64,000 nucleotides of DNA from positions 1 through 64,000 of the forward strand of contig NZ_MBQD01000022.1 in assembly GCF_001693815.1 (NCBI RefSeq). Direction: 5' to 3'. Made by a program: the position numbers and the translations under genes. Positions 3,273 through 58,965 of the stretch are shown here, piece by piece (position 1 is the first letter of the stretch; every line of letters starts with the position of its first letter). This stretch comes from Tessaracoccus lapidicaptus (GTDB taxonomy: Bacteria; Actinomycetota; Actinomycetes; Propionibacteriales; Propionibacteriaceae). The notes under the pieces were generated by a model. That model was given only the letters and a program-made list of their open reading frames with translations. It was not told the DNA's origin and searched no databases.

Positions 3273-3297
3273 GAAGTGGGGGTGGGGTCGCGTCAGG

Positions 3298-3602
3298 TTT
3301 CGCTCGCTGGGGTCGTGCCAGTCTCGTTCGCTGAGGCCTCGGTCGGTAGCACCCGGGCGAGTCTCGAAGCCGACGCCACCCCGTTCGCTGAGGTCGCGGC
3401 CGACGGCGGAGCCGTCCGGGTGAGTCTCGAAGCCGACGCTCTCCCCGTTCGCTGAGGTCGCGCAATACCGTTCGCTAAGGTCGCGGCCGACGGCGCAGCC
3501 GTCCGGGCGAGTCTGGAAGCCGACGCTCTCACCGTTTGCTGAGGTCGCGCCCGGTGCGGAGCACCCGGGCGAGTCTCGAAGCCGACGCCGCAGGCGTCGA
3601 TC
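3298..3602 (-). repeat. Hairpin repeat array R1 (four units)
   Basis: Four copies of a 55-75-base unit read on the minus strand as GGCTTCGAGACTC, a GC-rich hairpin, then GCGACCTCAGCGAACGG. Units lie near 3324-3376, 3382-3437, 3469-3525 and 3534-3602; only the last carries the extra 5' hairpin GACGCC-TGC-GGCGTC. The inner hairpin is of two kinds: GTGC/GCAC stems in the first and last units and GACGGC/GCCGTC stems in the middle two. The CTCAGCGAACG end faces the stop codon of the LmeA-like gene 26 bases away. The array stays open in several frames and creates spurious ORFs on both strands. Confidence 0.85.
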
Positions 3603-3921
3603 TCCCAACCCCATCCGCTGCTGGTGTGGGGAGCCGTGATCCGTCGCTCGGGCAGCCCTTGTCGCCGGGTGTTCTGTTCGGCTGACAGCGCTGCGGGGGC
3701 CGGGTAGTCGAGGCCGCCCGAGCGTCGGTTCCCGTCTCCCCACACATGTTTCGGCGGTGGCGTGGCCGGGTCCGGGTGCGTGCCGGCGGGGCGGCCCTGG
3801 CACAGGTTCGTCTAGGCGGGACGCCAGTTTGGTGATCCTCGGGTTGGGCATCACTGCGCGCAGCCGCCCCACCATCCCACCCCCTCGCGGGAACGCCTCG
3901 GGCTGCGTTGCCGCGCAGGCC
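3603..3921. other. Non-coding spacer between repeat arrays R1 and R2
   Basis: About 320 bases with no supportable gene. Open frames on the minus strand (for example a stretch beginning MPNPRITKLASRLDEPVP) are continuous with repeat-derived frames, are rich in Arg and Pro, and have no ribosome binding site. It may be a worn remnant of the 3' part of a DUF222-HNH-type gene or unique spacer; nothing in it can be identified. Confidence 0.4.
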
Positions 3922-4147
3922 CCGCTCGCTGAGGTCGTGCCGACCCCGTTCGCTGAGGTCGCGCCCGACGGCGGAGCCGTCCGGGCGAGTCTCGAAGCCG
4001 ACGCCGCAGGCGTCGACCCCCAACCCCGCTCGCTGCGGTCGTGCCAGTCTCGTTCGCTGAGGTCCTGCCAGTTTCGTTCGCTGAGGTCGCGCCCGACGGC
4101 GGAGCCGTCCGGGCGAGTCTCGAAGCCGACGCCGCAGGCGTCGATCT
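3922..4147 (-). repeat. Hairpin repeat array R2 beside the HNH gene 3' end
   Basis: Two full units read on the minus strand (about 3946-4016 and 4074-4147), both with the GACGGC-TCC-GCCGTC inner hairpin and the 5' GACGCC-TGC-GGCGTC hairpin, plus extra CTCAGCGAACG-type tails near 3922, 4023 and 4051. The last unit ends 11 bases from the HNH gene stop codon with its GATCGACG end facing the gene, the opposite polarity to arrays R1, R4 and R5. It is the mirror image of the first unit of R3 on the other side of the HNH gene. Confidence 0.85.
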
Positions 4148-5724
4148 CTCAAGGGTCGTCAGGTGCCGTCGCCCCAGATGTCGGCGGAGCGGCGGATGAG
4201 GTCATCCAGGTCCGGCCGGTGGTCTGCCGGACCCGTGACGGGAAAGTTTGGTGGGTCGGTGTCTGGCGGGCTGGTGTCCGGGCAGGGGGGTGCCCCGGCG
4301 CGGATCTGCTCGGGTCGGAAGCGGCGATGCTGTCGCGGGCGTCTGGCGGGATCGATGTGTCGGGGTGGGGTGAACCACGGCAGCCCGGTGACCGGGTCGA
4401 GGTGCACCCGCCACTGCGAGGGCTCGGACTGCAACGGATCGGGTTCCACCAGGCGGTGGTGGTGCGGGCAGAGCAAGATGCCGTTTCCGAGCTGGGTGTC
4501 GCCGCCTTGCCACCAGGGGATGATGTGGTGTGCTTCGCAGGATGCGGGGGTGGCGGTGCAGCCGGGGAACGCGCAGCCACCGTCGCGCTGCATCAAAGCT
4601 GCCCGCAGGCCGGGGGTGAAGGTGCGGTAGGTGCGGCCCACGTCCAGCAGCCGGGATGGTCCGCCCAGGACGACGGGGATGATGCCGGCGTCGCAGGCGA
4701 GTCGCCGCACTTCGCCGGCTGGCAGGCCGTCGACGTCGTCGGCACCGATGAGGCCAACCCGACCGAGTCCGGTGGTGAGGGTGTCGAGGTCGAGGGTGAC
4801 GTGCACCTGCGGCCTGTCCCCACCATGCCTGGGCAGCGTTCCGGTGTTGGCGGCTTTCTGGGTGAGCAGGACCAGCGCGTCCGCGCGACGCGCGTCACGT
4901 GACGCGGCCTCGCCGGTGGCGGTGTAGGTGGAGGCGTCCTGCATCAACGCATCCAACTGTGCGCTGAGGAGGGCTGCGTCGGCGACGGGGAGTTGTCCGG
5001 TGATGCGCATCGAGCCGTGATAGTCCGGCGCGATGCGCAGGAACCGACCCCGATAAGCTGCCGCTTCCTCCCGCGCCAGGCGCTTCGCGTCATCCGCGTC
5101 CGATGCGTCGGGGTCGATGATCTCGACCAGCCGCGCGGCAAGGACCCGCAACTCGGACGGGCCCAAGGTATCGACGTGCTGCAGGATCTCCTTCTCGCAG
5201 CGCGTCAACTCCGCCCGGGTGAGCCGGCCGGGCAGCTTCCGCAAGCCGGCGACGATGGCGTCGGCCTGCGCCAGCGAGATCGAGCCGTCGTTGAGGGCGG
5301 CGCCGATCAGCGGGAAGCGGTCGCACAGGTCCTGCGCGAGCCGGAGACTGGCGGTGGCCTGGGCGGGGGTGGTGCGCACCGACTGCCGCACCTCGTCGAT
5401 CACGGCCTCCGTCGCGGCGAGCTTCGCCTCATGCAGCAGGTGGAGGCGTAGACCGGCGAGCTGGGCTTCGGCTTCGGTGACCGCCGCGACGAGGCCGGCA
5501 AGGCGGTCTGCGGGGGTGTCGTCGGTGGTGAGTGACAGCGCGGCGTCCCAGAGTGCAGCGATGGATCGCTGCATCTGCTCGCGCATGGAATCACTCATGT
5601 GACCTATTCTGGCGGGGGCCACTGACAATTTTCGGATTTCCAAGGCCGGAAGATCGACGCCTGCGGCGTCGGCTTCGAGATTCGCCCGGACGGCTCCGCC
5701 GTCGGGCGCGACCTCAGCGAACGA
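4074..5724. mobile_element. Candidate inverted-repeat-bounded unit carrying a DUF222-HNH gene
   Basis: The HNH gene is bracketed by inverted copies of the hairpin repeat: 4074-4147 on the left and 5651-5724 on the right. Read outward-in they are 74 bases each and differ at one position (GAGACT versus GAGATT). The 1,651-base block therefore has the layout of a small transposon with long terminal inverted repeats. No target-site duplication is visible and further repeat units continue outside both ends, so repeat pairs may simply have accumulated around the gene. DUF222-HNH proteins are the REP13E12 family of mycobacteria, themselves repeated genomic elements. Confidence 0.4.
4159..5598 (-). 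CDS. DUF222 / HNH endonuclease domain protein (13E12 repeat family)
   Basis: A 479-residue protein with an all-helical DUF222 region (about residues 1-310) followed by an HNH nuclease motif: two CxxC-type cysteines (CAFPGC), AHHIIPWW, GNGILLCPHHHRLVE, near residues 335-385. The last ~80 residues are Pro/Arg-rich. I take the ATG at 5598 (MSDSMREQ); a longer frame to 5739 exists only because the flanking repeat happens to be open. The family is widespread in Actinobacteria as multi-copy genes of uncertain role; nuclease activity is expected from the motif but not shown here. The gene sits exactly between inverted hairpin repeats, which makes a link between nuclease and repeats worth testing. 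Confidence 0.85.
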   Translation of the reverse strand: MSDSMREQMQRSIAALWDAALSLTTDDTPADRLAGLVAAVTEAEAQLAGLRLHLLHEAKLAATEAVIDEVRQSVRTTPAQATASLRLAQDLCDRFPLIGAALNDGSISLAQADAIVAGLRKLPGRLTRAELTRCEKEILQHVDTLGPSELRVLAARLVEIIDPDASDADDAKRLAREEAAAYRGRFLRIAPDYHGSMRITGQLPVADAALLSAQLDALMQDASTYTATGEAASRDARRADALVLLTQKAANTGTLPRHGGDRPQVHVTLDLDTLTTGLGRVGLIGADDVDGLPAGEVRRLACDAGIIPVVLGGPSRLLDVGRTYRTFTPGLRAALMQRDGGCAFPGCTATPASCEAHHIIPWWQGGDTQLGNGILLCPHHHRLVEPDPLQSEPSQWRVHLDPVTGLPWFTPPRHIDPARRPRQHRRFRPEQIRAGAPPCPDTSPPDTDPPNFPVTGPADHRPDLDDLIRRSADIWGDGT

Positions 5725-5914
5725 GTCAACCCCCAGCACGACACGCCGCCGAACTCCGCCATCAACGCCATCAACCGCTCCCGAGCCCGAGGAAGGCTGC
5801 CATTCGTGCTGCGCTCGGGGGATCGACGCCTACGGCGTCGGCTTCGAGACTCGCCCGGACGGCTCCGCCGTCGGGCGCGACCTCAGCAATCGGGTGGCGC
5901 GACCTCAGTGACGG
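5651..5914 (+). repeat. Hairpin repeat array R3 upstream of the HNH gene
   Basis: Two full plus-strand units at 5651-5724 and 5821-5894, both with the GACGGC-TCC-GCCGTC inner hairpin, separated by about 95 bases of unrelated sequence, plus a tail-only copy (GCGACCTCAGTGACGGG) to 5914. The second unit has TAC instead of TGC in the loop of the first hairpin. The first unit is the inverted partner of the R2 unit at 4074-4147. The remaining bases to 6040 hold no feature except the leader of the next gene. Confidence 0.85.
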
Positions 5915-6040
5915 GCGACGCGTCCCCAGGGGAGGGACCCCTCACGCGGCTGGTTCATGGCCGGCGCACAGGCGACACCCACCGGCGAAACAGGCCGGGT
6001 CACGAGGATCGGGGCAGACAACCTAGACAGGGATCCGCCC

Positions 6041-40691: not shown

Positions 40692-40730
40692 GGTGTGCCT
40701 TGGGGTTGGGGCTGGGGGGATTGGGTTGGG

Positions 40731-41056
40731 GGATCGACGCCTGCGGCGTCGGCTTCGAGACTCGCCCGGGTGCTGCGCACCGGGCGCGACCTCAGCGAAC
40801 GGGACGGGCGCGACCTCAGCGAACGGTGCGGGGGATCGACGCCTGCGGCGTCGGCTTCGAGACTCGCCCGGGTGCTGCGCACCGGGCGCGACCTCAGCTA
40901 TCGGGACGGGGGGACCTCAGCGATCGGGACGGGGGATCGACGCCTGCGGCGTCGGCTTCGAGACTCGCCCGGGTGCTGCGCACCGGGCGCGACCTCAGCG
41001 AACGGGACGGGCGGGACCTCAGCGAACGGTGCAGGCGCGACCTCAGCGAATCGGGC
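40731..41056 (+). repeat. Hairpin repeat array R4 (three full units)
   Basis: Three nearly identical full units on the plus strand at about 40733-40803, 40834-40904 and 40935-41004, all with the GTGC-TGC-GCAC inner hairpin and the GACGCC-TGC-GGCGTC first hairpin. Between and after them are four tail-only copies of ACCTCAGCGAACGG (variants GCTATCGG, GCGATCGG, GCGAATCGG). The last tail ends four bases before the stop codon of the TetR gene, CTCAG end toward the stop. The array is also the leader of the ABC ATPase gene. Confidence 0.9.
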
Positions 41057-54819: not shown

Positions 54820-55062
54820 CCTACTCGTTCCCTGAGGAGTGTCGCCCGCGCAGAGGCGCGGTGTGGTCTCGAAAGGGTGGTCGTGTGAGGATCGGTGCGG
54901 GCAGCTCTCGGTCCATGAGGAGCGTCGTCCGCGTAGCGGCGCGGCGCGTCTCGAAGGGTCGTGGCGTGAGGTTCTGTGCGGGCAGCTCTCGGTCCCTGAG
55001 GAGCGTCGTCCGCGTAGCGGCGCGGCGCGTCTCGAAGGGTCGTGGCGTGAGGTTCTGTGCGA
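54820..55062 (-). repeat. 81-bp tandem repeat, subfamily 2 of the hairpin repeat
   Basis: Three tandem units with an 81-base period (starts at 54820, 54901 and 54982); the last two are almost identical, the first is more diverged. On the minus strand each has the skeleton CCTTCGAGAC, a GC-rich imperfect hairpin with a TAC loop, then CTCAGGGACC, like subfamily 1 with different hairpin arms. A partial copy in the other direction (CGACCCTTCGAGACCTC) follows near 55078-55096. The region to 55139 has nothing else; the IS element starts there. Confidence 0.85.
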
Positions 55063-58246: not shown

Positions 58247-58705
58247 TCAGTCGGCCAGTTCGAAGCCGGCGGCATCGCGGTGCCACTGCTCGCCGTACTT
58301 GGAGACCAGGATCAGGATGCCCTCAACCAGACCCCAGATCGCGGAGACCCAGGAGAGGAAGCCGACGGACAGCACCGTGATGAGGAGCTGAGCCAGAGCC
58401 TTCTTGGTGAAGCCGAGGTAGAAGTTGTGGATGCCCAGGCCGCCGAGCAGGATGCCGAGGATGCCGGCGACGATCTTGGACTTCTGACCCACCTGACCAC
58501 CGGGGGCGTACGGCGGCTGGCCCTGGTACGGCGCGCCGTAGGGCTGCTGGCCTTGGTACGGGGCGCCGTAGGGCTGCTGGCCTTGGTACGGGGCTCCGTA
58601 CGGCTGCTGGCCGAACTGCGGCTGGGAGGTGGGCTGGCCGTACTGCGGCTGATCGCCGGAGGGCTGGCCGTGGGGCTGCTGCGGATCCTGGGGGTACTGC
58701 GTCAT
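58247..58705 (-). CDS. TM2-domain membrane protein with Gln/Pro/Tyr repeats
   Basis: A 152-residue protein. Residues ~10-65 are Gln/Pro-rich with three tandem copies of QPYGAPYQGQ (encoded by a 30-base DNA repeat, 58521-58610), then a TM2 domain (~75-135: KIVAGILGILLGGLGIHNFYLGFTKKALAQLLITVLSVGFLSWVSAIWGLVEGILIL). I take the ATG at 58705 with GAAGGATC upstream. TM2 proteins are small two-helix proteins of mostly unknown role. Its leader contains array R5. Confidence 0.88.
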   Translation of the reverse strand: MTQYPQDPQQPHGQPSGDQPQYGQPTSQPQFGQQPYGAPYQGQQPYGAPYQGQQPYGAPYQGQPPYAPGGQVGQKSKIVAGILGILLGGLGIHNFYLGFTKKALAQLLITVLSVGFLSWVSAIWGLVEGILILVSKYGEQWHRDAAGFELAD

Positions 58706-58785
58706 GGAACGATCCTTCGTCGGTGCGGCTGGCGTGCGGGGCGTCGGGCACAAGGTAGCGCAGGCGTCGGTCATCCGGGTGGGGG

Positions 58786-58965
58786 GATCGACGCCTGCGG
58801 CGTCGGCTTCGAGACTCGCCCGGGTGCTCCGCACCGGGCGCGACCTCAGCGAGCGGGGTGGCGTCGGCTTCGAGACTCGCCCGGGTGCTGCGCACCGGGC
58901 GCGACCTCAGCGAACGGTTCAGGCGCGACCTCAGCGAGCGGTGCAGGCGCGACCTCAGCGACCGG
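58786..58965 (+). repeat. Hairpin repeat array R5
   Basis: One full plus-strand unit (58786-58856, inner hairpin GTGC-TCC-GCAC), one unit lacking the first hairpin (from about 58858), and two tail-only copies (ACCTCAGCGAGCGG, ACCTCAGCGACCGG) to 58965. The CTCAG end lies 14 bases from the stop codon of the aldo/keto reductase gene. Confidence 0.88.

Follow-up and report, generated by a model that had tools for sequence, protein, structure and literature searches.

Inverted hairpin arms around DUF222-HNH nuclease genes of Tessaracoccus also enclose a GIY-YIG nuclease gene

What relates a nuclease gene to the two near-identical hairpin repeats of opposite orientation that frame it? The question is raised by the window analyzed here, a whole stretch of 64,000 nucleotides from Tessaracoccus lapidicaptus, in which a gene of the DUF222-HNH type, which we take to be the REP13E12/13E12 repeat family of mycobacteria, is framed in this manner. 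A sequence-only reading of the window had described 74-base arms at 4074–4147 and 5651–5724, and the description is accurate: the arms are inverted and differ at one of 74 bases, with the stop codon (4159–4161) 11 bases inside the left arm and the ATG (5596–5598) 52 bases inside the right arm. The gene product matches the DUF222 domain with an E-value of 1e-34 and 120.5 bits, against a Pfam cut-off of 24.4, and its C-terminal HNH region is matched by both Pfam HNH_2 and HNH. Four histidines of the HNH motif (H357, H358, H380, and H381) are invariant in 38 aligned homologs. The arms are larger than first described, as the left arm extends to 3297 and includes SP, a conserved segment at 3617–3880. 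The repeats at 3.3–3.6 kb, probably those that the reading labeled R1 and counted as a copy without the nuclease, are the outer piece of this left arm, beyond SP, and not lone copies; the lone clusters of the window, which lack a nuclease, are those at 40719–41049 and 58773–58965.

Table 1 Features of the DUF222-HNH locus and lone hairpin clusters in the 64,000-nucleotide window
Position	Strand	Feature
3297–3616	-	Outer left arm: four hairpin units (cores 3353, 3416, 3503, 3565) and tail repeats, directed away from the gene
3617–3880	-	SP, conserved ~265-nt segment with covarying stems, within the left arm
3912–4147	-	Inner left (3′ side) arm: two hairpin units and tail repeats
4159–5598	-	DUF222-HNH nuclease gene, 479 aa; start set by paralog conservation
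4450–4575	-	HNH motif region (Pfam HNH_2/HNH)
5119–5481	-	Codes residues ~40–160; predicted ParB/Noc-like parS-binding domain fold (AlphaFold models, VIA-align)
5619–5628	-	Leader motif TTGTCAGTGG, 20 bases upstream of the ATG (by eye)
5651–5724	+	Right (5′ side) arm, hairpin unit 1
5818–5921	+	Right arm, hairpin unit 2 and tail repeat
40719–41049	+	Lone cluster: three hairpin units and tail repeats, without nuclease
58773–58965	+	Lone cluster: two hairpin units and tail repeats, without nuclease

The window holds two further repeats. An 81-base tandem pair (54873–55034, 93% identical) lies outside the hairpin families, and three in-phase 30-base direct repeats (58507–58596), perhaps a repetitive protein segment, lie beside the hairpin cluster at 58773. 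Judged by eye, a leader resembling TTGTC(A/G)GTGG precedes many DUF222 starts by roughly 15–35 bases in several families, and was found in the source genome (G000) as well as in G051, G043, G053, G030, G033, and G032; it may be a promoter, an operator, or a nuclease target.

The hairpin unit is of the REP type and consists of a head TTCGAGAC, a variable palindrome, and a tail CTCAGCGAACGG. Specifically, the order of elements is GATCGACGCC-TGC-GGCGTC, followed by GGCTTCGAGACTCG, a second palindrome, and the tail GCGACCTCAGCGAACGG, which is often found in tandem. The second palindrome, parsed in 79 of 96 units, has two main self-pairing forms, ACGGC-TCC-GCCGT and GTGC-TGC-GCAC, along with loop variants. 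The SP segment occurs in the source genome in 16 copies, 15 full and one split, every one of them in hairpin arms; 14 full copies and the split copy are beside DUF222 genes and one is beside a GIY-YIG gene. Two-sided changes are kept in 14 of 50 predicted pairs, a raw count from a 30-row alignment with no shuffled baseline, and SP therefore probably adopts a structure, whether as RNA or as DNA. Five loci submitted to Rfam gave no match above chance, with a single weak chance match. Left and right SP copies within one locus are 0.86–0.89 identical and the mean across loci is 0.865; own-locus pairs are no closer than copies from other loci, which leaves a recent inverted duplication unsupported. 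Sister genomes carry SP as well, with 20 matches including fragments in G019 and at least seven in G051, and most of the sites fetched there have neither a DUF222 gene nor a GIY-YIG gene of the 98-aa type described below nearby. Three sites in these two genomes hold inverted SP pairs: L108 (6746–7010 and 8903–9167), L110 (2162–2422 and 2683–2943), and L118 (6510–6776 and 7057–7325). One of the three pairs encloses a DUF222 gene; those at L110 and L118 are spaced just ~260–280 bases apart and are either gene-less derivatives or separate elements.

Across the source genome (3.09 Mb, 27 contigs), the unit core occurs 96 times at up to three mismatches, and a reversed-pattern control returned no match. 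Of these units, 76 are found no farther than 2.5 kb from one of the 14 DUF222 genes, compared with an expectation of ~2.7%, and every one of the 76 points outward. The unit pattern was derived from the window, which itself has 13 units; without them, 68 of 83 units are near a DUF222 gene. The remaining units comprise six around a GIY-YIG gene and 14 in six other clusters. Units stand beside 11 of the 14 DUF222 copies, and the arrangement proposed from the window locus recurs: nine genes are bracketed by outward inverted arms and two more have a single arm, leaving three without units. The copies at L079 and L082 stop at the stop codon and have no 3′ arm. Where present, arms span hundreds of bases and can hold as many as eight units on a side. 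All units of a lone cluster share one direction, and a gene inserted there would therefore not gain inverted arms from the insertion alone.

Orthologous sites could be compared at five of the 11 arm-bearing DUF222 loci (L080, L081, L079, L076, and L078), and three of the five (L080, L081, and L079) have clean empty sites in sister species. At L080, the flank matches are separated by ~14 bp in G051 and by 173 bp in G019, versus 3.0 kb in the source genome; in G051, the flanks are 91 bp apart at L081, with one tail-like motif between them, and 64 bp apart at L079. The search for empty sites that the sequence-only reading had proposed thus finds whole blocks of 2–3 kb missing at three loci, and because such blocks are absent as a whole, the gene with its arms is an insertion. 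The L076 site in G019 holds only a solo SP, without the gene. The L078 site in G051, at a contig end, has a DUF222 gene and SP at the matching place; this copy is 94.8% identical to a G051 paralog and ~71% to the source-genome copy, with a flank identity of 80%. Copies within a genome are therefore closer than copies at the same site, which fits copying between loci. The orthologous-site search gave no clean empty site for the window locus or for L082. The nearest species are ~80% identical, and at the compared loci neither a target-site duplication nor the exact junctions can be read at that distance; classical terminal inverted repeat (TIR) ends with a duplication are likewise not readable at ~80% flank identity. 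At L162 (8760–8870) in G019, a ~31-base tandem repeat with GCGTTGAGCC occupies a site that holds a 3-kb element in the source genome.

Among nine intact DUF222 copies of the source genome (36 pairs, L010 left out), dN/dS is 0.11–0.20 with a median of 0.16, and the copies are under purifying selection. One arm-bearing copy (L011/L083) is frame-broken.

HNH and GIY-YIG are classical homing endonuclease folds, and the ParB/Noc fold is known from palindrome-binding proteins. For the N-terminal domain of DUF222, the predicted fold resembles that of the parS-binding domain in ParB/Noc: when AlphaFold models were compared using VIA-align, ParB/Noc-type domains topped the list, with a match that is modest for a helical domain and a next unrelated row only 0.1 Z lower. 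Foldseek gave no match at E ≤ 0.001, and sequence searches found no ParB relative. The reading that we tentatively prefer, with a confidence somewhat short of even, is that gene and arms form a selfish block, with a nuclease that would bind the repeats and cut at them so that repair copies the block in, and that the arms are shared by two nucleases. Past block insertion, we infer the steps as follows. The nuclease would recognize the palindromic repeat through its predicted binding domain and cut or nick there; repair would then copy the block into the break, with the shared arms supplying the homology, a process of recombination rather than transposition. Copying by cut and repair appears likeliest because the arms are two-sided, the block is inserted as a whole, the copies are alike, the nuclease folds are of the homing type, and the predicted domain is of a palindrome-binding type.

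The second nuclease was found in the source genome itself, where the arms are not private to DUF222. The sole inverted unit bracket without a DUF222 gene (contig C26, 126698–127781) surrounds the gene of a GIY-YIG protein of 98 aa (Pfam E 3e-13); a DUF222 remnant was looked for in this bracket and none was found. The left arm of the bracket and DUF222 arms are collinear for ~440–650 nt at 75–84%. The list of solved relatives of this 98-aa nuclease contains only small GIY-YIG proteins of the UPF0213 group (PDB 1zg2 and 1ywl), whose molecule names give neither a function nor a link to repeats. A second stand-alone GIY-YIG gene (C1:29767) lies between 379-nt inverted arms, 81% identical, of another hairpin type. 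Pieces of the latter type are found beside DUF222 in G051 (61–152 nt, 72–82%), and ~100 nt of its spacer is found beside DUF222 in G022.

A GIY-YIG gene was detected in 17 of 39 Tessaracoccus genomes and in 116 of 293 genomes of the order. We scored flanks by the presence of an inverted repeat of at least 60 bits between 1-kb flanks, since a 40-bit cut-off was lenient and passed 28 of 201 ordinary genes of one genome, G032. The sample from other genera comprised 60 GIY-YIG loci, the 20 best-scoring and 40 from listed rows, mostly on long contigs and chosen blind to their flanks; they are non-independent, with many from one genus and a few from the same genome. At this cut-off, 28 of the 60 have inverted flank repeats, 30 have direct ones, and 45 have repeats in either orientation. 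In Tessaracoccus, where three of 21 rows were dropped (contig edge; one broken copy listed twice), the counts are 10 of 18 inverted and 13 of 18 in either orientation. Control windows shifted by 40–100 kb in the same genomes gave 0/40 inverted and 1/40 in either orientation, control genes at unselected Tessaracoccus loci gave 0/100 and 1/100, and control genes of REP-bearing G032 gave 4/201 for both. A search by a generic REP regular expression was abandoned, as many repeat types escaped it. A head-like motif is present on both sides within 300 bases at 46 of the 60 loci, versus 0/40 controls, and the two motifs are opposed in 40 of these 46. Inward polarity is the commoner one at the GIY-YIG loci of other genera (36/46, by a crude motif), the reverse of the source genome; among 19 Tessaracoccus loci, 13 are two-sided, nine of them opposed and four equal. 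Across the order it is thus GIY-YIG, more than DUF222, that regularly sits among such repeats. Because the arms enclose a GIY-YIG gene in the source genome and GIY-YIG genes elsewhere are repeat-flanked above controls, the arms are likely to be a shared vehicle for two unrelated nucleases, HNH-DUF222 and GIY-YIG.

DUF222 genes in other genomes differ in this respect. They number 14 in the source genome and 1–36 in the 38 of 41 genomes that have a match; very high numbers of matches occur in G039 (27), G030 (25), G036 (31), and G033 (36), and inverted flank repeats of at least 60 bits are absent from the copies sampled in G039, G030, and G033. From ten other genomes we took 40 DUF222 loci, of which four (L124, L136, L137, and L154) were excluded for a contig edge after the gene. 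Of the 36 testable loci, seven have inverted flank repeats at E ≤ 1e-3, three of these reaching at least 60 bits, and 29 have none. The expectation that DUF222-HNH genes generally carry inverted flank repeats fails at these 29 loci, which rule out DUF222 as a generally repeat-bracketed gene; homologs without flanking repeats are also what the sequence-only reading had named beforehand as evidence against its proposal. Paralogs within these genomes share the open reading frame and typically at most ~200 bases ahead of the first profile-aligned residue, with a longer upstream stretch of ~440–630 bases in G039 and G026, where that residue is intragenic. Sharing ends within 10 bases past the stop codon in pairs of G049, G043, G044, G030, G033, and G026 and in five of six pairs of G032; it runs 25–133 bases beyond the stop codon in 10 of 15 G039 pairs and ~220–250 bases in three of six G022 pairs. 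Judging from these flanks, DUF222 genes multiply without hairpin arms and may not need them, since 29 of the 36 loci elsewhere have no inverted flank repeats. The paralogs at L127–L161 (for instance in G043, G030, and G033) are ~70–96% identical and have the appearance of a mobile unit without evident terminal repeats.

The picture of an autonomous element with non-autonomous copies, as first proposed for the window, is thereby divided: the arms, the insertion, and the lone clusters hold, and the arms are neither general to DUF222 genes (29/36 without) nor specific to them. Because the arms also enclose GIY-YIG and most DUF222 genes elsewhere are unbracketed, DUF222-HNH acting as the repeat's autonomous partner would be no more than one of two partnerships.

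The main rival to nuclease-driven copying makes GIY-YIG the sole acting enzyme and DUF222 a passenger, a proposal that we consider possible and, on the whole, doubtful. The repeats would belong to GIY-YIG alone, as a REP/RAYT-like pair, and DUF222-HNH would be an independent mobile gene that landed in the arms ancestrally and has since been co-copied, its nuclease inactive on the repeats. GIY-YIG genes are indeed repeat-flanked across the order and most DUF222 genes are not; DUF222 is multi-copy elsewhere, with shared sequence ending at the stop codon in most sampled genomes, and even in the source genome L079 and L082 end there without a 3′ arm. Observations in two genomes weigh against this rival. 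G022, in which no GIY-YIG gene was detected, has inverted repeats flanking two or more of its DUF222 genes. G032 belongs to another family; there, the 57 kb surrounding eight DUF222 loci contain a REP tail 45 times, versus 16 times in 320 kb of background, and at least two copies are present at six of the eight loci versus two of 16 background windows (Fisher p 0.005). The tail itself was chosen among k-mers frequent at four of these eight loci; the four loci outside that selection, with 14 tails in 28.7 kb and two of the four having at least two (versus two of 16 windows), make the enrichment only suggestive. One background cluster of G032 holds, between opposed REP tails, a 439-aa open reading frame (L312, 7734–9053) whose C-terminus is HNH-like (E 0.04 with Pfam HNH, below cut-off) and which has no DUF222 match, possibly a further repeat-framed nuclease.

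Passive accumulation, in which REP-type repeats are scattered by other means and survive at insertion-tolerant sites beside DUF222 and GIY-YIG genes, seems to us distinctly unlikely. Solo SP segments and lone clusters without a nuclease do exist, and six of the 10 SP sites without DUF222 (L110–L118, in G051 and G019) lie between converging genes by crude gene calls, as this proposal would have it; yet all 76 DUF222-near units point outward, 76 of 96 units sit at just 14 genes, the empty sites miss whole blocks, and gene-centered controls are flanked in 0/100 and 4/201 cases. Hardly credible is a regulatory role of the arms as bidirectional terminators or insulators that shield a potentially toxic nuclease gene from neighbor transcription, for the hairpins do directly adjoin the gene on both sides, but they extend over hundreds of bases with up to eight units per side, two copies do without one arm, most DUF222 genes elsewhere do without both, and the palindromes of the window unit are followed by no T-runs as read from the sequence. 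Two other origins were set aside: PADLOC gave no defence-system match, and the PHROGs matches, all to generic HNH, offer nothing for a phage origin.

The preferred reading, a block of gene and arms copied by nuclease cutting and repair, can be placed among known mobile systems. Like homing endonuclease genes, the element is present or absent at matching sites and its copies within a genome are alike; unlike them, it inserts in intergenic DNA next to repeats present in many copies rather than into a unique conserved target, and no intron or intein is involved. Long inverted arms, and the SP pairs ~260–280 bases apart at L110 and L118, recall MITEs and TIR transposons, whereas the element has no known transposase, its arms are arrays of REP units, and no target-site duplication was seen with flanks ~80% identical. 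A similar layout is found in RAYT/REP systems, the RAYTs being REP-associated tyrosine transposases. In the part of PMC2817692 available to us, the RAYT gene lies amid inverted palindromic repeats with further copies elsewhere, each repeat type has its own gene copy, and repeats may accumulate near the gene. The source genome has the bracket at nine DUF222 genes and one GIY-YIG gene, and a second GIY-YIG gene with another repeat type; copies of the window type alone number 96, of which 14 are away from nuclease genes, compared with >100 for RAYT/REP. The differences lie in the enzymes, HNH-DUF222 and GIY-YIG nucleases in place of a Y1 transposase, in the head (GTAG in RAYT/REP versus TTCGAGAC here), and in the long structured segment within the arms. 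RAYT identity is ruled out, as the Y1 (HUH) transposase profile PF01797 has no match in the source genome and matches five of 14 control genomes.

The sections of PMC13061034 that we drew on describe REP13E12 loci of M. tuberculosis as gene-conversion hotspots without a defined biological function; the multi-copy state and, probably, gene conversion among copies are shared with our element, whereas flanking hairpin arms go unmentioned in those sections and the source-genome copies lie in inverted arms. REP13E12/HNH/DUF222 is also among the repetitive elements that account for some clusters of a reference-free screen (PMC10589994, in part), and variable regions of M. avium are flanked by REP13E12 genes (PMC2323391, in part). 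A REP survey (PMC12306157) includes a few Actinomycetota in a table, and the words RAYT and nuclease are absent from its text. None of these four papers, within the sections drawn on, mentions the arms or a link to GIY-YIG. In a PMC-centered literature search, with preprints outside PMC and most subscription papers beyond its scope, we found nothing on DUF222 and HNH with inverted repeats, nothing on GIY-YIG with extragenic palindromic sequences, and no account of what spreads actinobacterial hairpin repeats.

We propose, with very nearly even confidence, that these loci represent an actinobacterial counterpart of REP/RAYT, in which palindromic repeats are partnered with a small GIY-YIG nuclease and the arms have been taken over by DUF222-HNH, at least in Tessaracoccus, so that two unrelated folds use one interchangeable pair of arms. 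If true, a REP-type system would have been built without a Y1 transposase, and its nucleases would be exchangeable. The proposal ties the function of the repeated DUF222/13E12 genes to the spread of actinobacterial hairpin repeats, and both questions become testable with two proteins and a DNA of ~74 bp.
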